Below are positions 90 through 14,858 of a stretch of 44,852 nt of DNA, piece after piece. How positions within the stretch are numbered: position 1 is the first letter of the stretch; every line of letters starts with the position of its first letter. The notes under the pieces are model-generated. The model did no database searches and was not told where the DNA came from. It saw nothing but the letters and a program-made list of their open reading frames with translations. The DNA is from a virus: positions 1-44,852 of IMG/VR virus record IMGVR_UViG_3300048586_000879; one strand, written 5' to 3'. The position numbers and the translations under genes are program-made.

Positions 90-165
90 GGCCCCTTCGT
101 CTAGCGGTCTAGGACGTCGCCCTTTCACGGCGAAAACACGGGTTCGAGTCCCGTAGGGGTCACCA
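90..165 (+). tRNA. tRNA-Glu (TTC anticodon), integration target
   Basis: The sequence folds as a standard cloverleaf. The acceptor strand GGCCCCT pairs with AGGGGTC (one G-U), the anticodon stem TCGCC/GGCGA encloses the loop CTTTCAC with anticodon TTC, and the T arm is CGGGTTCGAGTCCCG. The discriminator is A162 and CCA is encoded at 163-165. It sits beside a leftward integrase gene, so it is most likely the host gene whose 3' end serves as the bacterial attachment site. I did not see a second copy of its 3' end in the window. Confidence 0.95.
141..165 (+). other. Probable attL core in the tRNA-Glu 3' end
   Basis: Temperate phages with tyrosine integrases commonly use the T-arm and acceptor end of a tRNA gene as the crossover core. 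Here the integrase lies just inside, with its 3' end towards the tRNA. The core limits are inferred. The matching attR would contain a copy of this segment and must lie beyond position 44852. Confidence 0.5.
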
Positions 166-497: not shown

Positions 498-1655
498 TCA
501 GCGCCCCATCTTCGAGAACGGCACCGCATTCATCTTCGCCGCGGCGCCCTGTGCGATCGTCAGCGCGCGGGCGCGCTTGCCATAGTGTCGCACCGTCTCG
601 GGCGTCATGCCGAGAATCGCGCCGACGTCGGTGTCGCTGAGCCCGGTTTCGAGCAGGTAGCAGCAGGCGTTCTTACGCAGGCCGTGGAAGGTGTAGAGCG
701 CCTTGCCGTTCGAATCGACGTGCCCGAGCTTCTTCATCATCGCGCGGATCCGCGACTGGATCGCCTCCTCGCTGCCGAACGGCCGGCCGGTGCGGTCATA
801 GAGCACGGTAACCGCCTTCTTCGGCAGCTTGTCGATCTCCTCGCGCCACCACGGGTGGACGGGCACCGCGGCGTCGACGTCGGTCTTGAACTGCGAGAGC
901 TCCATGATGCCAGACTTCAGCCAGGTGTGATGGATGCGAATCACGTCGCTGATGCGCTGGCCGCTGCATAGGCCGGAGACGATCGCGAGCCAGAGCATCG
1001 GTGACGCTTCAATGTGCGCCTCTTTGAGCACGTCGGCCGGCCACGGTTCATGCTCGCCAAGCGGCAGCGGCGCGATATCGCTGGCGGGATTGTCGGGGCG
1101 CCAGTCGCGCTCCGTGGCATAGGTCAGCATCAGCTTCAGGACGTTCAGCCAGTTGTTGGCCTTGCCCGGCGTTTCGGCGAGGCCGTCGCGGAGCTCATGG
1201 ATATGGACCGGCCGGATGCCCTTCACATCGAGGTCGCGCACCGCGGTGCGTTTGTGCGTCTTCTGATTTTCGTAGATGAAGTCCGGATCCTCAAACATCG
1301 CGACATAGCGCAGATAATTCTCGATCGTGTTCGGCGAGTAGGGCTTGATGCCCTTCTCCGGCTCGCCCTCGCGCTTCTTCCGCTTGCGCTGCTTCTTCGT
1401 CCAGCCCTTCGCGAGCGCAGCACGAAACGACTGCGCCAGCGCCCAGAAGCTGCCCGGCTCTGGCGCGTTGCGTGTCTCGGGCGCGGCGGTATATTCGGCA
1501 TTGACCCGCGCGAGCTCGACCGCGAAGCGCGGGTCGGTCGGGGCAGGGAGTTTGACGTAGATGTCCTTCCGCTTCCCCGCCTCATCATAGTAGCGGAAGC
1601 GGCGATAGGTGCTGCCCTTCTTCTGGCACACTCCGGGGATGTTCAAGCGTCCCAT
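498..1655 (-). CDS. int: Tyrosine site-specific integrase
   Basis: This 385-residue protein should catalyse prophage integration and, with an excision factor, excision. An N-terminal Arg/Lys-rich DNA-binding region (about 1-105) and a SAM-like core-binding domain (about 105-190) precede the catalytic domain. The visible catalytic residues are R234 (GQRISD), probably K257 in a beta-hairpin, H324 and R327 (FHGLRKNA), and the nucleophile Y358 (VRHYGKRA). The usual LGH of box III reads LGM here (M350), so the conserved third-box His/Trp seems to be absent. The gene lies beside tRNA-Glu and overlaps the excisionase-like gene by 13 nt. Confidence 0.95.
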   Translation of the reverse strand: MGRLNIPGVCQKKGSTYRRFRYYDEAGKRKDIYVKLPAPTDPRFAVELARVNAEYTAAPETRNAPEPGSFWALAQSFRAALAKGWTKKQRKRKKREGEPEKGIKPYSPNTIENYLRYVAMFEDPDFIYENQKTHKRTAVRDLDVKGIRPVHIHELRDGLAETPGKANNWLNVLKLMLTYATERDWRPDNPASDIAPLPLGEHEPWPADVLKEAHIEASPMLWLAIVSGLCSGQRISDVIRIHHTWLKSGIMELSQFKTDVDAAVPVHPWWREEIDKLPKKAVTVLYDRTGRPFGSEEAIQSRIRAMMKKLGHVDSNGKALYTFHGLRKNACCYLLETGLSDTDVGAILGMTPETVRHYGKRARALTIAQGAAAKMNAVPFSKMGR

Positions 1656-1876: not shown

Positions 1877-2459
1877 CGCGACCCCTCCAAAGGATCGGTG
1901 GCGCCAACGGGTCTATGCGATGCTTGCCACGCGCCATGGGATGCGTCGGCGCGCCGCTCTTCGTCTTGCCCCAGCACCAAAGATCAGGATACGGCGCGGC
2001 GCCGGTCTGAATTTCCTCGATGACGCTTTCGTTCCATTCCCAGTCGATGTCGTTTGCGATGTTGCCGAAACAGACGAAGACTTGATCGGCCGCCTTTGCG
2101 ATACGGGCGACGTGATCGCGATTGGCGAATAACTCATCGCGGTCACCCCATTCCCCGGCGAAGGCGCGCTGCACGCGTTCGCGACACACGGCCGGGTCGC
2201 TCGCGACAAAGCTGTAGAAGTTCACGGCGTCGTAGCCGCCGAATCCATAATGCTGGCACCATCGGATCCACCAAAGCGAGGTCGGGTCATCACGATCCTC
2301 GCCAGCATCCGACGGGTTGCAACCGATCATGCAAGCTATCGGCCCCGGTCCCCATCGGCGACCGAGCGTGCGCCGGATCCCCGGCGAAGGGAAGAAAGCG
2401 GAGCGGCGCAGAATCGGCTCGCCCAAAAGGTCGACGTCGAGGGTGACAGCTTTTGTCAT
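1869..2459 (-). CDS. DUF1643 family protein
   Basis: The protein has 196 residues and starts at MTKAVTLDVDLL. The start at 2459 overlaps the preceding stop in an ATGA. The body has the pattern of DUF1643 proteins: IACMIGCNPSDAGEDRDDPT near residue 40, then NFYSFVASDP, and FVCFGNIAND after residue 120. The molecular function of DUF1643 is not established. A longer reading from 2507 would run into the upstream gene. The first six residues and the DNA around the start are identical to those of the preceding gene. Confidence 0.8.
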   Translation of the reverse strand: MTKAVTLDVDLLGEPILRRSAFFPSPGIRRTLGRRWGPGPIACMIGCNPSDAGEDRDDPTSLWWIRWCQHYGFGGYDAVNFYSFVASDPAVCRERVQRAFAGEWGDRDELFANRDHVARIAKAADQVFVCFGNIANDIDWEWNESVIEEIQTGAAPYPDLWCWGKTKSGAPTHPMARGKHRIDPLAPPILWRGRDG

Positions 2460-5310: not shown

Positions 5311-6392
5311 GCTGGCATCTCCCGATGCTCGCGGCCATCAAGCAGATGCCCCGCCTTCCGAACGCCGACGCGGTCGACGTAGACGACGCGATCGCCGTGA
5401 AAGCCGGTACCGCCTGCGAGATTGTGCCATTGCCCCTTGGGGCGCTCATGTTGCCAGCGGCCGCAATCGCGCCAGTCCGGATCGTCGACGTCGCGATCGA
5501 AGACCGGCAGGTACTCGCCCCACTGCTTGAAATGAAAGGTGACGCCGTTCTGCGCGCAAGCATCGCGGATCTGGCGCACCCAGTCAGGATGGAGCGGCCG
5601 GGCGCCCTTGCCGCTCTCTCCGCCGACAATGATCAGATCGATCGCGCGCTCGTCGCTGACGCCTGAATAATCGCATTTCGAGCAGCATTCGTACTGCCCG
5701 GTCGACGGGTCCATGGCGGGTGCGTAACCGTCATCATCCCGCCAGTTCTCGCACTCGTGATAAAAGTCAGACCCGATCTCCGGCGGCAGGGCGCCTAGCA
5801 TCGGCTCGACGGAAACGAAGGCGACGGGAATTTCATGGATGAGCTTGACGGCGCGGAGCTTGGGAATGTCACGGCGCCACTCGGCGGCATTGCAGACCGT
5901 GATACCGATCCAGACATTCGACGGCACGCCCTCGGGAAACATCTTGGTCAGCATGTCGTGGGCGTTGCCGATCCGCTTCGTCAGCAGCATCCAGTCGAGC
6001 CAAGGCGTAGCGCGGATCATGTCGGCGATCTCGGTGCGCCATTCATCGGGCACATGCTTGTCGGCCCAATCGGACAGCGAGCTACAGAACACGCGCAGGC
6101 GCACCCCCGCCTCGGCTGCTATGCGATTCCAGCGGAGTGGCTTCTTCCGGTTCGCCGGCGAGGTCTGCTCGCGCGCGCCGCCCGGGCCCCAGACGATCGG
6201 CGGCTTGCCGGTTTTCTCGCGCATCGCGTTGACGCGGGCGTTCGTGAATTCCCTGGCATAGCAATGGTCGCACGCCGGGCTGACCTCTTGGCATCCGATC
6301 CAGAAGTTCATGGTCAGATCGGCCCAGCTGATGCCTGTGCCTTCGCGTTCGAGCAGCTTGACGGCAGCTTGGGGGAGCGTGCGGACCGTCAT
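5307..6392 (-). CDS. Phage Gp37/Gp68 family (DUF5131) protein
   Basis: The 361-residue protein resembles the Gp37/Gp68 phage family. The N-terminus has MNFWIGCQEVSPACDHCYA, with Cys34, Cys41 and Cys44 arranged as C-x6-C-x2-C, which suggests an iron-sulfur or zinc site of radical-SAM type. The family motifs LLTKR near 136, SNVWIGITV near 158, SVEPMLG near 194 and IIVGGESG near 254 follow. A second Cys group (C214, C236, C237, C240) sits in an insertion before IIVGGESG. The reaction is not known. Start and stop are ATGA-coupled to both neighbours. Confidence 0.85.
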   Translation of the reverse strand: MTVRTLPQAAVKLLEREGTGISWADLTMNFWIGCQEVSPACDHCYAREFTNARVNAMREKTGKPPIVWGPGGAREQTSPANRKKPLRWNRIAAEAGVRLRVFCSSLSDWADKHVPDEWRTEIADMIRATPWLDWMLLTKRIGNAHDMLTKMFPEGVPSNVWIGITVCNAAEWRRDIPKLRAVKLIHEIPVAFVSVEPMLGALPPEIGSDFYHECENWRDDDGYAPAMDPSTGQYECCSKCDYSGVSDERAIDLIIVGGESGKGARPLHPDWVRQIRDACAQNGVTFHFKQWGEYLPVFDRDVDDPDWRDCGRWQHERPKGQWHNLAGGTGFHGDRVVYVDRVGVRKAGHLLDGREHREMPA

Positions 6393-9517: not shown

Positions 9518-9546
9518 CTAATGTGCCCTATATGGGCATCTGTCAA
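9518..9546 (-). promoter_or_regulatory. Leftward early promoter with operator in the spacer
   Basis: On the minus strand a perfect TTGACA (9546-9541) is followed by a 17-bp spacer and CATTAG (9523-9518), a weak -10. The spacer contains the whole palindrome at 9524-9538, so a repressor bound there would block polymerase. This would be the phage PL equivalent, driving 9473 down to the integrase. Confidence 0.6.
9524..9538. promoter_or_regulatory. Operator TGCCC-TATAT-GGGCA (left 1)
   Basis: A perfect 5+5 bp inverted repeat, with the same arms as three other sites around the repressor gene. It lies between the -35 and -10 of the leftward promoter. Confidence 0.75.
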
Positions 9547-9555
9547 TGTATTAAA

Positions 9556-9570
9556 TGCCCATAGTGGGCA
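9556..9570. promoter_or_regulatory. Operator TGCCC-ATAGT-GGGCA (left 2)
   Basis: The second left operator. Its centre is 32 bp, about three helical turns, from left 1, so cooperative binding on one face is plausible. It sits just upstream of the -35 of the leftward promoter. Confidence 0.75.
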
Positions 9571-10196: not shown

Positions 10197-10901
10197 TCAA
10201 TGCCTCCTGCCTGACCATAGCACACGGCCGATGATCCGCACCGCTTCGCGCGGATAGGTGCGCACCCGATTCGGATGCTGGGGATTGTCGGACAGCACCT
10301 CGACCATGCCGCCACCCGCCGGCATAAGCCGCTTGATCGCGCCGGCGCCGTCGATCGTGATTGCCCAGATGCGGTCGAGCTTGTTGAGCTCGGTTTCGTT
10401 GAGATCGATCAGCACGTCGTCATGATCCCCGATCGTCGGCGCCATGCTGTCGCCAACGCCGCGGCCGATGATGAGGCGGTCGGCCGGGGTGGCGGTGATC
10501 GCGGCGAGCCAGTTGGCGTCGAAGCTGACGTCCGATTCCTCGATCCAGTCTTCAAGATCGGTGCCGTCGCCCATTGCGAGCTCGAGGTTGAGGCTGCGCA
10601 GCTGGACCGCGCCGACGTCGTCGCGCGTGCCGCGCGTCGGCATGTGATCGGGTGCGCGCTTGATATCGAGCGGACGCTCGGCGCGCTCGCCTGAGGGCGG
10701 CGTGAAGCCGCGCTTGCCGATCAGTTCCGACGGGTCGCAGTCGAGCGCCTCCGAAATCCGGTTCAGCCAATCCTGATTGAGGCGCCGCGCGCCGCGCTCG
10801 AGCTTGCCCAGATTGTTGACGGTCGTGTTCGCGAGCTCGGCGAGCTCTTCCTGCGTCATGTTCTTCGCCTTGCGAAGCTCTGCAATGCGGTTGTTCGCCA
10901 T
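10197..10901 (-). CDS. CI-like repressor, XRE HTH plus S24 peptidase
   Basis: This 234-residue repressor should maintain lysogeny. The start is MANNRIAELRK at 10901; a longer frame from 11414 would run through the operators and the tRNA. Residues 4-60 form an XRE-type HTH (MTQEELAELANTTVNNLGKLERG). After a linker, a LexA/S24 fold carries Ser152 (GDSMAPTI) and Lys190 (GAIKRLM), 38 residues apart as in the Ser-Lys dyad of LexA-like proteins. No clear Ala-Gly cleavage site is visible in the linker, so RecA-triggered self-cleavage is uncertain. Four matching operators flank its transcript. Confidence 0.9.
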   Translation of the reverse strand: MANNRIAELRKAKNMTQEELAELANTTVNNLGKLERGARRLNQDWLNRISEALDCDPSELIGKRGFTPPSGERAERPLDIKRAPDHMPTRGTRDDVGAVQLRSLNLELAMGDGTDLEDWIEESDVSFDANWLAAITATPADRLIIGRGVGDSMAPTIGDHDDVLIDLNETELNKLDRIWAITIDGAGAIKRLMPAGGGMVEVLSDNPQHPNRVRTYPREAVRIIGRVLWSGRRH

Positions 10902-10911
10902 GCGTGTCTTG

Positions 10912-10926
10912 TGCCCTCCTTGGGCA
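10912..10926. promoter_or_regulatory. Operator TGCCC-TCCTT-GGGCA (right 1)
   Basis: This palindrome lies 11 bp before the repressor start codon. On the minus strand its centre reads AAGGAGG, so the likely ribosome-binding site of the repressor mRNA is embedded in the operator. Spacing from that site to the start codon is long (about 13 nt). Confidence 0.75.
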
Positions 10927-10972
10927 TATTCCGTATAGAGGACAGGTTGGGCACTTTGTGTGTTGCATGGGG

Positions 10973-10987
10973 TGCCCATATTGGGCA
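10973..10987. promoter_or_regulatory. Operator TGCCC-ATATT-GGGCA (right 2)
   Basis: A perfect inverted repeat 11 bp before the Cro-like start codon. Half-sites GGGCA at 10949-10953 and 10994-10998 lie on either side and could be weaker sites. A possible rightward promoter, TTGTGT (10956-10961), 17 bp, TATTGG (10979-10984), overlaps this site and would give an almost leaderless message. Confidence 0.7.
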
Positions 10988-10997
10988 TGTTATGGGC

Positions 10998-11213
10998 ATG
11001 AAGCTGCTCGACCACATCAAGGCCCTCGGGCTCACCATGCCAGAAGCTGCGGCGGAGCTCGACGAGGCCGAGAGCACGATTCGCAAGATTGCCTATGGAC
11101 AGCGCCAGCCCAGCCTCCCGCTCGCGGTCAAGATCGCGGCATGGTCGGACGGCGCCGTCACCGAAGCCGAGCTCCTCCTGCCCGACACTATCGTCCGGGA
11201 GGATGCGGCCTGA
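10998..11213 (+). CDS. Cro-like small HTH protein
   Basis: The protein has 71 residues from the ATG at 10998 (MKLLDHIKALGLTMPEAAAELD); an ATG six bases earlier would add MG. Residues about 9-48 are a helix-turn-helix (LTMPEAAAELDEAESTIRKIAYGQRQPS) of the Cro/YdaS type. It diverges from the repressor and starts next to an operator. Its probable role is to repress the repressor transcript on the lytic side. It lacks any ligand or peptidase domain. Confidence 0.75.
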   Translation: MKLLDHIKALGLTMPEAAAELDEAESTIRKIAYGQRQPSLPLAVKIAAWSDGAVTEAELLLPDTIVREDAA

Positions 11214-11231
11214 TGCTGGTTCAACTGTTTT

Positions 11232-11306
11232 CGCAGGGTAGGGAAGTCCGGTCATCCCGTTTGGCTCATAACCAAGAGGTCGCGGGTTCGAATCCCGCCC
11301 CTGCAA
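11232..11306 (+). tRNA. Phage tRNA-Met(CAT), initiator-like
   Basis: A full cloverleaf: acceptor CGCAGGG/CCCTGCA with a C1-A72 mismatch, D stem GGGA/TCCC, anticodon stem TTTGG/CCAAG around CTCATAA (anticodon CAT), T stem GCGGG/CCCGC with TTCGAAT, discriminator A. The next bases are CCC, so CCA is not fully encoded. A mismatched 1-72 pair and purine11-pyrimidine24 (G-C) are hallmarks of bacterial initiator tRNA. The three G-C pairs normally at 29-31/39-41 are reduced to T-A, G-C, G-C. The gene lies in the rightward early transcript. Confidence 0.9.
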
Positions 11307-11346
11307 CCCATCCCCGGAGTGTGTCGCCCCCCCGGCACTTCGGGCA

Positions 11347-11392
11347 GGCACGGCGGGGCTCACTCCCCCCAACCCCTCGGCCCCGCCGTGCC
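11347..11392 (+). other. Long GC-rich hairpin after the tRNA
   Basis: A perfect 13-bp inverted repeat (GGCACGGCGGGGC at 11347-11359 and its complement at 11380-11392) encloses a 20-nt C-rich loop. No T-run follows, so it is not a canonical intrinsic terminator. It may stabilise or help process the tRNA-containing transcript, or attenuate it. The rest of the 236-bp gap (11214-11449) shows nothing else I recognise. Confidence 0.6.
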
Positions 11393-11449: not shown

Positions 11450-11920
11450 ATGGAAATGGCGCCCGAGTTTTCCAGCGAGGCTGTAAGAGCCCTTGTCCGC
11501 GACACGCTGCGGCACTTCGTCGGTCATGGCCGCACGATCAGCTGGGCCGCGCTGGCCGCCGCCACGTTCGACGGTGAGGGGAGCATCGACACCTGGGAGC
11601 GCCGACTGCGCTCCTATGTCGAGGTCGACGGACCGATGATGCCGCTCAACACGGCGATGCGGATTTTCTCGGCCCTGCCGCCCGCTGCCTTCCAGCGCCT
11701 TGCCAACCGCATGGGCTTCGTCACCGCGCCGTTGCACTTCGAAGCAACTGCCACGGTGCGCACCGCCGTCGCGGCCTGCGCGCGCTTCGCGGCCAACGGT
11801 GCCGAGGCGCTCGAGGACGGAAGCCTGTCGCACGTCAAGCTGGCCCGCCTTGCCCACGACGCCATCGCGCTCGGCCCCATCATCAATTCCATCGCGGGGA
11901 GCGGTTCGGCCCTGCGCTGA
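11450..11920 (+). CDS. Putative early regulator, hypothetical
   Basis: The protein has 156 residues starting [12 protein letters not shown]; a second ATG at 11456 is possible. The N-terminal half ([45 protein letters not shown]) looks like a helix-turn-helix with a long recognition region. The position downstream of the Cro-like gene is where lambdoid phages carry a CII-type activator. That role is inferred; the sequence does not prove DNA binding. The ribosome-binding site is weak. Confidence 0.55.
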
Positions 11921-11988: not shown

Positions 11989-12252
11989 ATGAGCGAAGCG
12001 AAAGTTTCGGACGAACAGTTGCGCCTGTTCATCGAGCGCATTGAGCGCCTGGTCGAGGAGCAGAAGGGCATCGCCGACGATATCCGCGACGTCTACCTCG
12101 AGGCGAAGTCGCAGGGTTACGACCCGAAGATCATGCGCAAGATCGTGCGCCTGCGCAAAATCCCGGTCCACGACCGAAAGGAAATGGAAGCGCTGCTCGA
12201 CGTCTATGCGTCGGCGCTCGGGATGCAGCTGAGCCTGCCGTTGGCGGCCTGA
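11989..12252 (+). CDS. GapR-like (DUF2312) DNA-binding protein
   Basis: The protein has 87 residues. It matches DUF2312/GapR, small nucleoid-associated proteins of alphaproteobacteria that bind overtwisted AT-rich DNA. The characteristic run is [47 protein letters not shown], followed by a helical tail. The start has an AAAGGAG site nine bases upstream. In a phage it could organise DNA ahead of replication forks or modulate host GapR. It is two bases from the helicase-methyltransferase gene, so they are co-transcribed. Confidence 0.88.
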
Positions 12253-12254
12253 TC

Positions 12255-14858
12255 ATGACGGCCGAGAATTACCGCAGCTTCCTCGAAGCCAAGATGCCTG
12301 CCGCGCCTCTCGCGGGCCTGCCCTGCACGCTGGACGAGATCCCGACGCACCTGCGCGACGGCCGGCCACTGAAGGAACATCAGCGTCACATCGTCCGCTG
12401 GGCGGTCGAGGGCGGGCGCCGCGCGCTGTTCGAGGCGTTCGGCCTGGGCAAGTCGATCCAGCAGCTGCTGATCTGCGACACCATCCTGCGCAAGCTGGAA
12501 GAGGTCGAAGGCTTCATGCCGGACGCGCTGATCGTCGCACCGCTCGGCGTCCGCATGGAATTCATGAAAGACGCGGCGCTGCTCGGCCTCACGGTCCACT
12601 TTGTAAAATCCGATTCTGATATCGAAGCCTGTGGCGATGCGGGCGGCATCTTCCTCACCAATTACGAAAGCGTCCGCGAAGGCAAGATCGATGTCAGCAA
12701 GTTCCGCGTCGCCAGCCTCGATGAAGCATCGGTGCTGCGCAGCTATGGCAGCAAGACATTTCAGGAGTTCCTCCCTCTGTTCGAGGCGGTGCCGTACCGC
12801 TTCGTCGCGACCGCAACGCCCTCGCCGAACCGCTACAAGGAGCTGATCCACTACGCCGGGTTCCTTGGCGTCATGGACACGGGACAGGCGCTGACGCGCT
12901 TCTTCCAGCGCAACAGCGAAAAGGCAAACGACCTCAACCTCTACCCCCACAAGGAAGATGAATTCTGGCTCTGGCTCAACAGCTGGGCGGTCTTCCTGCA
13001 GCGACCGTCAGACCTCGGGTTCAGCGACGAAGGCTATGACCTGCCGCCGATCGAGGTGCGCTGGCACTGCGTCGAGGCCGATATCAGCGACGCTGGCGCC
13101 GACAGCAACGGCCAGCGCCGCCTGATCCGCGACAATGCCGTCGGCGTGGTGCAGGCCAGTCGCGAGAAGCGCCGCACGATGGATGCTCGCATCGCCAAGG
13201 TTGCCGAGATCATGGCGGCCGACCCCGACGATCATTTCCTCATCTGGCACGACCTCGAGGACGAGCGCCGCGCGATCGAAGCGCTCGACGTGCCCGGCCG
13301 GGACCGCATCGCCGCTGTGTACGGAACGCAGGATCTGGACGCGCGCGAGGCGATCGTCGGTGATTTCAGCGACGGCCGGATCAAGGACCTCGCCGCAAAG
13401 CCGGTGATGCTCGGCTCCGGTACCAACCTGCAGCGGCATTGCCACCGCGAGATTTTCGCGGGCATCGGCCACAAGTTCAACGATTTCATCCAGGCGATCT
13501 TCCGCGTCCAGCGCTTCGGCCAGACGAAGCCGGTCATCGTCGATGCGATCTATGCCGAAACCGAGGAAGAGGTCCGGCGCATCCTGCTCGATAAATGGGC
13601 CCTGCACGAAGAGCTCACGGCCAAGATGAGCGCCATCATCCGCAAATATGGCCTCAACCACGAGGCGGCGGCCGACGTCGCGAGCCGCAGCATCGGCGTC
13701 GAGCGTGCCGAGCAGTCGGGCAACGGCTGGACCCTCGCTCACAACGACTGCGTCGAAGAGGCGCGGCTGCTGACCGACGACAGCCTCGACCTGATCGTCA
13801 CCTCAATCCCCTTCAGCAACCACTATGAATATACGCCGAGCTATAATGACTTCGGCCACACCGACGACGACGCGCATTTCTTCGCGCAGATGGATTATCT
13901 GACGCCGGAGCTTTACCGCGCGCTGCGCCCCGGCCGGCTCGCCTGCATCCATGTAAAAGACCGGATCCTCTTCGGCGCGGTCACCGGCGAGGGTGTGCCG
14001 ACGGTCAACCCATTCCACGCCAAGACGCTGTTCCATTACCAGCGCCACGGCTTCCAGTTCATGGGCATGATCACCGTCGTCACCGACGTCGTGCGCGAGA
14101 ATAATCAGACCTACCGCCTCAGCTATTCTGAGATGCTGAAGGACGGCACCAAGATGGGCGCCGGCAGCCCCGAATATATCCTGCTGATGCGAAAGCCGCA
14201 GAGCGACCGCAGCCGCGGCTATGCCGACAAGCCCGTCGCGAAATCCGCCGCAGACTACAGCCTGGCGCAGTGGCAGATCGACGCGCACGCATTCTGGCGC
14301 TCGTCGGGCGATCGCCCGTTGCACCCGGCCGAGCTCGCCGCCGCGGCGCCGCGCTTCGCCGAGATGGGCGTCGGGCCGCTGGTCAAAGCCTTCACGACCG
14401 AAAGCCGCGACCTGATCTATGACGCGGCGGCGCATGTCGCGATCGGCGAGACCATCGAGGCGCGCGATCCAAACGACGGCCGGGGCCACCTGCCTCGCAC
14501 CTTCATGTCGCTCGCCCCCGGCAGCCATCACCCCGATGTGTGGGACGATGTCGTGCGGATGCGCACCCTCAACGCCGAACAGGTGCAGAAAGGCCGCGAG
14601 AAGCACGTCTGTCCGCTCCAGTTCGATATTGTCGACCGGCTGATCGACCGCTTCAGCATGAAGGGCGAGCTTGTCTATGACCCCTTCTGCGGGCTCGGCA
14701 CGGTGCCGATGCGGGCAATCATGAAGGGCCGCCGCGGCCGGGGCAGCGAGCTCAACCCCGACTATTTCCGGCACAGCTGCCTGTATCTCGCCGAAGCGGA
14801 GCGCGAAGCCGCGGTGCCGTCGCTGTTCGACCTGCTCGAGATGGAGCAGGCGGCATGA
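12255..14858 (+). CDS. SNF2-type helicase fused to DNA methyltransferase
   Basis: This is an 867-residue two-domain protein. Residues about 35-460 are a superfamily 2 helicase core: GLGKS (63-67), the DEAS box (156-159), the TATPSPN motif (186-192) and a motif VI-like IFRVQRFGQ near 415-425. Residues about 490-850 are a Mod-type amino-methyltransferase: catalytic-loop motif TSIPF (516-520) where SPPY or NPPY is usual, then the AdoMet motif DPFCGLGT (809-816) with SELNPDYF. The order (motif IV before I) fits the beta-class. It should methylate phage DNA, perhaps with ATP-driven translocation. No nuclease domain is visible. It ends in an ATGA overlap. Confidence 0.85.
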   Translation: MTAENYRSFLEAKMPAAPLAGLPCTLDEIPTHLRDGRPLKEHQRHIVRWAVEGGRRALFEAFGLGKSIQQLLICDTILRKLEEVEGFMPDALIVAPLGVRMEFMKDAALLGLTVHFVKSDSDIEACGDAGGIFLTNYESVREGKIDVSKFRVASLDEASVLRSYGSKTFQEFLPLFEAVPYRFVATATPSPNRYKELIHYAGFLGVMDTGQALTRFFQRNSEKANDLNLYPHKEDEFWLWLNSWAVFLQRPSDLGFSDEGYDLPPIEVRWHCVEADISDAGADSNGQRRLIRDNAVGVVQASREKRRTMDARIAKVAEIMAADPDDHFLIWHDLEDERRAIEALDVPGRDRIAAVYGTQDLDAREAIVGDFSDGRIKDLAAKPVMLGSGTNLQRHCHREIFAGIGHKFNDFIQAIFRVQRFGQTKPVIVDAIYAETEEEVRRILLDKWALHEELTAKMSAIIRKYGLNHEAAADVASRSIGVERAEQSGNGWTLAHNDCVEEARLLTDDSLDLIVTSIPFSNHYEYTPSYNDFGHTDDDAHFFAQMDYLTPELYRALRPGRLACIHVKDRILFGAVTGEGVPTVNPFHAKTLFHYQRHGFQFMGMITVVTDVVRENNQTYRLSYSEMLKDGTKMGAGSPEYILLMRKPQSDRSRGYADKPVAKSAADYSLAQWQIDAHAFWRSSGDRPLHPAELAAAAPRFAEMGVGPLVKAFTTESRDLIYDAAAHVAIGETIEARDPNDGRGHLPRTFMSLAPGSHHPDVWDDVVRMRTLNAEQVQKGREKHVCPLQFDIVDRLIDRFSMKGELVYDPFCGLGTVPMRAIMKGRRGRGSELNPDYFRHSCLYLAEAEREAAVPSLFDLLEMEQAA

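Follow-up and report, generated by a model that had tools for sequence, protein, structure and literature searches.

A tRNA-fMet-like gene directly behind cro in a temperate alphaproteobacterial phage and the recurrence of lone initiator tRNAs beside phage repressors

A viral DNA of 44,852 nucleotides (IMG/VR record IMGVR_UViG_3300048586_000879; "the window" below means this whole stretch) carries directly behind cro an initiator-type tRNA(CAU) gene, tRNA-fMet-like and without an encoded CCA, at 11232..11306 on the plus strand. We consider it, with a probability of about 0.6, a functional phage-specific gene that stands second in the early lytic (cro) operon, the phage being temperate and alphaproteobacterial. 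The observations behind this reading are the tRNA itself with its initiator features, its position behind cro, the recurrence of this position and the divergence of the tRNA from host initiators.

The gene was matched over its full length by Rfam RF00005 (63.1 bits), and ARAGORN called the same gene as tRNA-Met(CAU) with ends stretched to 11231-11310. Single-strand MFE folding of the window tRNA did not recover the cloverleaf (z -1.9). Such a miss is common for unmodified tRNA; since MFE folding is uninformative here, the evidence for a tRNA is the covariance-model match. Read directly, the acceptor stem (CGCAGGG/CCCTGCA) has the mismatch C1xA72 followed by G2:C71 and C3:G70, the D-arm (TAGGGAAGTCCGGTCATCCCG) has G11:C24, the anticodon arm (TTTGG-CTCATAA-CCAAG) has U29:A41, G30:C40 and G31:C39, and the T-arm (GCGGG-TTCGAAT-CCCGC) has the loop TTCGAAT. 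A73 is followed by CCCA, with C76 in place of A76, so CCA is not encoded. The tRNA thus shows the unpaired 1:72 position of bacterial tRNA-fMet, the pairs G2:C71 and C3:G70, which have been named as formylation determinants (PMC7949028), and purine11:pyrimidine24 in the form of G11:C24. The C1xA72 mismatch and the purine11:pyrimidine24 pair had both been noted in the initial annotation of this DNA, which called the tRNA initiator-type; the Rfam match and the isotype classification bear out this call.

Isotype was assigned by a home-made position-profile classifier (not tRNAscan-SE) trained on alphaproteobacterial tRNAs from public genomes, namely 29 tRNA-fMet, 30 elongator tRNA-Met and 16 tRNA-Ile2(CAU), which in the leave-one-out trial placed 74 of 75 correctly. 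For the window tRNA the fMet profile gave 38.5 bits, the Ile2 profile 0.4 and the elongator Met profile -13.6, so that fMet leads by 38 and 52 bits, respectively. tRNA-Ile2 (CAU, lysidine), which the initial annotation had offered as an alternative, was rejected by this score and by the unpaired C1xA72. Elongator tRNA-Met was rejected as well, having C11:G24 and a paired 1:72 where the window tRNA has G11:C24 and C1xA72. Either assignment had been named beforehand as speaking against an initiator; the classifier returned fMet instead.

Bacterial tRNA-fMet (E. coli metY/metZWV and the genes of alphaproteobacterial hosts) shares with the window tRNA the CAU anticodon, C1xA72, G2:C71, C3:G70, purine11:pyrimidine24, G30:C40, G31:C39 and A73. 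Three consecutive G-C pairs at 29-31:39-41 are the norm in E. coli, and the window tRNA has two of the three because of U29:A41. This count was given correctly in the initial annotation, but it is no oddity of the phage, since A29:U41 is present in all 29 sampled alphaproteobacterial host tRNA-fMet genes and is paralleled by the phage U29:A41. We therefore rejected the anticodon stem with two G-C pairs as a phage-specific trait; it is the norm of the host lineage. What sets the window tRNA apart from host initiators is the D-arm with G11:C24. The hosts have A11:U24 in 29 of 29 genes, and of 385 alphaproteobacterial genomes only one contained the window D-arm motif with G11:C24, that one having been selected for it. 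The E. coli initiator differs at the same place (A11:U24) and has G29:C41 rather than U29:A41; further differences from bacterial tRNA-fMet are the D-arm, the T-stem and the CCA, which the window gene does not encode. No sampled host tRNA-fMet was more than 78.7% identical to the window tRNA, and the tRNA of the phage contig L027 is 94.7% identical. The comparison with the host initiator, proposed in the initial annotation, thus speaks against a fresh host copy.

Among the archaeal initiators returned by our genome scan this D-arm is the usual one. In Nitrosopumilus and others it is near-identical to that of the phage (TGGGGAAGCCAGGTCATCCCG in archaea and TAGGGAAGTCCGGTCATCCCG in the phage), and G11:C24 is common to both. 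However, archaeal initiators have A1:U72 and three G-C pairs, whereas the phage tRNA has C1xA72 and two. Whole-tRNA identity of the window tRNA is on average 73% to archaeal initiators and 75% to bacterial ones; as the former is no higher than the latter, we treat the D-arm match as similarity, not ancestry, and do not accept an archaeal origin from it. Convergence appears as likely as shared ancestry for the archaeal-type D-arm. One contig titled as a Woeseiaceae MAG (L092, 5466-5541) has an initiator tRNA identical to the Nitrosopumilus type and is probably a mis-binned archaeal contig.

The window is a temperate tailed phage; its relatives mark it as alphaproteobacterial, and its host is probably a sphingomonad. 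At the left end lies a host-type tRNA-Glu(UUC) with encoded CCA (90..165, plus strand; ARAGORN, Rfam 62.7 bits), the probable attL of the prophage, with a tyrosine-type integrase adjacent (498..1655, minus strand; PHROGs phrog_1 integrase, E=2.4e-20); attR was not found within the window. Next come leftward genes and then a divergent immunity region, beyond which the genes for replication, packaging, head and tail form a rightward block. The immunity region includes a CI-type repressor with HTH_3 and S24 peptidase domains (10197..10901, minus strand; Pfam HTH_3 3.7e-12, Peptidase_S24 1.2e-12) and a Cro-like HTH protein of 71 aa (10998..11213, plus strand; Pfam HTH_3 4.4e-6), with 12 homologues in viral contigs. 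Operator-like palindromes of the TGCCCATAGTGGGCA type were located by motif scan at 9522..9570, a candidate leftward operator, and again in the CI-Cro intergenic region (10920..10997), the place of the putative PR and its operators, although a sigma-70 consensus match for PR was not found in this intergenic region. These TGCCCATANTGGGCA-type palindromes, which flank the repressor gene on both sides, likely serve CI and Cro as operators at the leftward and rightward promoters.

The tRNA begins 18 nt past the cro stop codon and is followed on the same strand by two leader hairpins. One has a 10 bp stem (11313..11344; folded in the window and in L027, with a compensatory change in L027) and the other a 14 bp G-C stem with an 18-nt loop (11347..11392; its exact motif is present in L027 and L334). 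Both lie between the tRNA and gene X, are kept in L027 and L334 with this one compensatory change, and have no clear U-run after them; the region 11313-11392 is in what we take to be the place of lambda nutR/tR1 and HK022 putR. Gene X (11450..11920, plus strand) stands in place of lambda cII and is conserved in L027 (63% amino acid identity) and L334 (80.6% DNA identity); it has no PHROGs or Pfam match, and a search for relatives with it added only L027. A DNA helicase/methyltransferase (12255..14858, plus strand; PHROGs phrog_16 1.3e-114) is preceded by a phage-borne GapR-like DNA-binding protein encoded in the early operon (11989..12252, plus strand; Pfam GapR_DNA-bd 6.1e-33). The order is thus S24 repressor on the minus strand, then Cro on the plus strand, tRNA, two hairpins, gene X, GapR and helicase-methylase, with the tRNA as the putative second gene of the early rightward operon. 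The initial annotation had placed the tRNA in the first rightward operon, which is supported: it lies directly behind cro, with a divergent S24 repressor upstream. The accompanying premise that many phage messages have GTG or TTG starts is not supported, as an ATG start is possible in most main window genes; the initiator may still bias initiation towards phage messages, but the sequence gives no sign of message selectivity.

Relatives of the window phage show how this slot changes. L334, found via the hairpin motif and not via the Cro homologue search, has 77-93% DNA identity to the window in pieces and the same Cro-hairpin frame. At the same site (1939-2010, minus strand) it carries an initiator tRNA with the CAU anticodon in the loop UUCAUAC, with G1xA72 + U2xC71, C11:G24, three G-C pairs and an encoded CCA. 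The T-arm and the 3' acceptor strand are 100% identical to those of the window tRNA, but over the 5' two thirds of the tRNA, where the D-arm and the anticodon arm differ, identity is only 65%; cro is at 78% and the leader at 89%. Close coupling of the tRNA to this Cro family was rejected: among the 12 relatives only L281, which is the same as L027, has an intact tRNA and L282 has a remnant, so that, among the phages found with this Cro, the intact gene comes down to the window, L027 and L334. In L282 the stretch CGCGGGGTGGGGAAGT, near 6235-6255, comes after the Cro homologue; it is what is left of the 5' part of the initiator tRNA, fused with the gene behind it. In Agrobacterium phage Rivra (L420, 2536-2611) an annotated tRNA-Leu(CAG) with a broken anticodon stem lies between cro and cII; this is probably a decayed initiator copy, or else an initiator with the anticodon CAG. 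The few intact copies, the remnant in L282 and the decay in Rivra indicate that the tRNA is dispensable, and the gene appears to be gained, recombined and lost like accessory phage genes.

How well have the initiator features been kept across viral copies? Our first search pattern was based on the D-arm, left the acceptor stem unconstrained and fixed G30:C40 and G31:C39, which are hence uninformative; it yielded 69 viral contigs with 55 distinct tRNAs. Among these 55 the 1:72 position is open in 45, 2:71 is G:C in 50 and 3:70 is C:G in 52, while the variation of the other acceptor pairs and of 27-29:41-43 is mostly compensatory. The unconstrained pair 29:41 is A:U in 21, U:A in 18, G:C in 15 and C:G in 1. 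Such conservation is the trace that selection for a formylatable bacterial initiator would be expected to leave. The second pattern, based on the 3' part with the D-arm unconstrained and A72 demanded, returned further initiator tRNAs of the A11:U24 and G11:C24 types, nearly all of them the sole tRNA of the locus. The third, based on the UUCAUAC loop and also demanding A72, returned 34 contigs, mostly with a lone tRNA. A few phage initiators have two open pairs, G1xA72 + U2xC71. Lone phage initiators thus differ from those of hosts by the archaeal-type D-arm, the UUCAUAC loop class and sometimes a double acceptor mismatch.

The order repressor, small regulator, tRNA is also present in Rhizobium phage RR1-A and in Mesorhizobium phage vB_MseS-P1, where an extra small ORF overlaps the tRNA and the repressor scores under the S24 cut-off. 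Contigs L336, L337, L342, L343, L348, L351 and L359 have the same order with S24 repressors, L041 and L355 have it with YdaS-like regulators, and in a Mesorhizobium phage-like plasmid an unassigned small gene precedes the tRNA in the same way. S24 was identified by Pfam in nine other loci, with L351 and L002 under the cut-off; the small regulators are not always recognised by Pfam, and in some contigs the regulator gene could not be resolved. With an S24 repressor profile built from ten of these repressors, a divergent repressor at most 1.5 kb upstream was detected for 20 of the 86 lone initiator tRNAs with enough flank, compared with 442 of 17,022 positions drawn at random from these loci (2.6%) and only one of 41 initiator tRNAs in arrays. 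After removal of the seed loci (10 of the 20) the proportion is 10/76 (13%), about five-fold over random, for which no p-value is given because phages are not independent samples. The other 66 of the 86 have no detectable adjoining S24 repressor, and lone initiator tRNAs occur elsewhere too (Erythrobacter phages, for instance, have one between the terminase and portal genes), so the place behind cro is frequent but not obligatory.

Phage-borne CAU tRNAs have been described, often as the sole tRNA, in temperate rhizobial phages (PMC12429752). The phiLM21-like prophages, Caulobacter phage CcrColossus and Pseudomonas phage D3 have tRNA-Met/fMet genes, phage-borne and with CAU like that of the window. 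In phiLM21, however, the tRNA gene is near the terminase genes on the other strand, and in D3 it lies in the late region beside three other tRNAs, whereas in the window it is directly behind cro. The initiator-like tRNA of D3 (L005, 4001-4076) has the loop CCCATAA, with C33 replacing the nearly universal U33. In the open-access papers searched, we found no description of cro-linked lone initiator tRNAs or of their sequence classes. As phage tRNA-fMet genes are already known (PMC12429752), the new part is the tie to the repressor-cro switch together with the distinct classes.

From sequence and setting we infer the expression of the tRNA, its charging, formylation and use in the P site, and its benefit as follows. 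In the lysogen the CI-type repressor would keep the cro promoter silent, and induction or infection would lead to co-transcription of cro and the tRNA, which would be matured by RNase P, 3' processing and the CCA-adding enzyme. MetRS would charge the tRNA via CAU and A73, Met-tRNA formyltransferase would formylate it because of C1xA72, G2:C71 and C3:G70, and the phage initiator would then supply the P site at the onset of lytic development. The benefit would most likely be an initiator pool independent of host tRNA-fMet. In E. coli the abundance and formylation of the initiator set P-site competition (PMC7949028). Host tRNA-fMet can become limiting and is a known target of VapC-type nucleases: BoVapC1 of an alphaproteobacterium cleaves it, and extra metZWV copies partly rescue growth (PMC8522696). 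Evasion of anticodon nucleases has been proposed for phage tRNAs in a study which also says that phages as a rule refrain from encoding tRNA-fMet where it is a VapC target (PMC10264068). Like the tRNAs of that proposal, copies in related phages differ from the host around the anticodon (UUCAUAC in L334 and others); unlike in that study, initiator tRNAs are common here, and the window copy retains the host loop CUCAUAA including A38, with no visible escape from the VapC 38/39 cleavage site.

Because the tRNA is an initiator, codon compensation cannot explain its carriage. Pure dosage, close to the idea of the initial annotation, is a possible explanation, though one we would bet against: more total initiator would speed or relax translation initiation without any link to nucleases. 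The gene is placed for immediate production on induction and its anticodon loop in the window is that of the host, as dosage would have it, but one added gene would give little extra initiator, the phage copies are divergent from host initiators rather than near-identical, and nothing unusual is apparent in the start codons of the main genes of the window. That the D-arm and anticodon arm are exchanged while the slot stays the same agrees better with a replacement benefit than with dosage, but the retention of the host loop in the window copy leaves nuclease replacement only modestly ahead. The tRNA fold might instead act in processing or regulation at the junction of cro with the genes behind it, its decoding identity being irrelevant; RNase P/RNase Z cleavage, or protection of an untranslated leader together with the two hairpins, would then act at the place of lambda nutR/tR1. 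In keeping with such an element, the tRNA has cro on one side and on the other a leader whose two strong hairpins are conserved, one of them with a compensatory change. We nevertheless regard it as improbable, since selection retains the 1:72 mismatch, G2:C71 and C3:G70, which an RNA spacer would not need, since the slot in L334 again holds a CAU initiator, and since lone initiator tRNAs also lie far from cro, as in the Erythrobacter phages.

An att remnant or a picked-up host copy, another alternative of the initial annotation, was rejected, and an att remnant appears unlikely: the integrase adjoins tRNA-Glu at the left end, no second copy of at least 13 nt of the tRNA-fMet sequence is present elsewhere in the window, and identity to the sampled host tRNA-fMet genes is at most 79%. 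Could the gene nonetheless be a neutral passenger, a piece of host tRNA-fMet left by imprecise excision or by an old attachment site? Its patchy presence among relatives, the 5' remnant in L282 and the damaged copy in Rivra are what such a passenger would leave. The integrase site and the low host identity oppose this, as do the compensatory changes and initiator features preserved across viral copies and the recurrent placement behind cro, and we give a passenger very little credence. Beyond the functional phage-specific initiator itself, a broader proposal is tentative, and the odds are against it: lone cro-linked initiators would form a widespread early-lytic module, in which a structurally distinct phage initiator (archaeal-type D-arm, altered loop and, in some, a double acceptor mismatch), made once repression ends, lets initiation escape host defences that target tRNA-fMet, and phages would swap D-arm and anticodon arm at this one site in the manner of an arms race.

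It has long been asked why phages carry tRNAs, and the usual answer, codon usage, is inapplicable to an initiator tRNA. A lone initiator recurring at the lytic switch of many unrelated viruses offers a clean test between control of initiation and replacement of nuclease-destroyed tRNAs. The natural variants (the G11:C24 D-arm, the UUCAUAC loop, G1xA72 + U2xC71, any pair at 29:41) offer tests of which initiator features bacteria need. The cro-linked arrangement suggests that phages may have a little-noticed means of safeguarding protein synthesis on waking.
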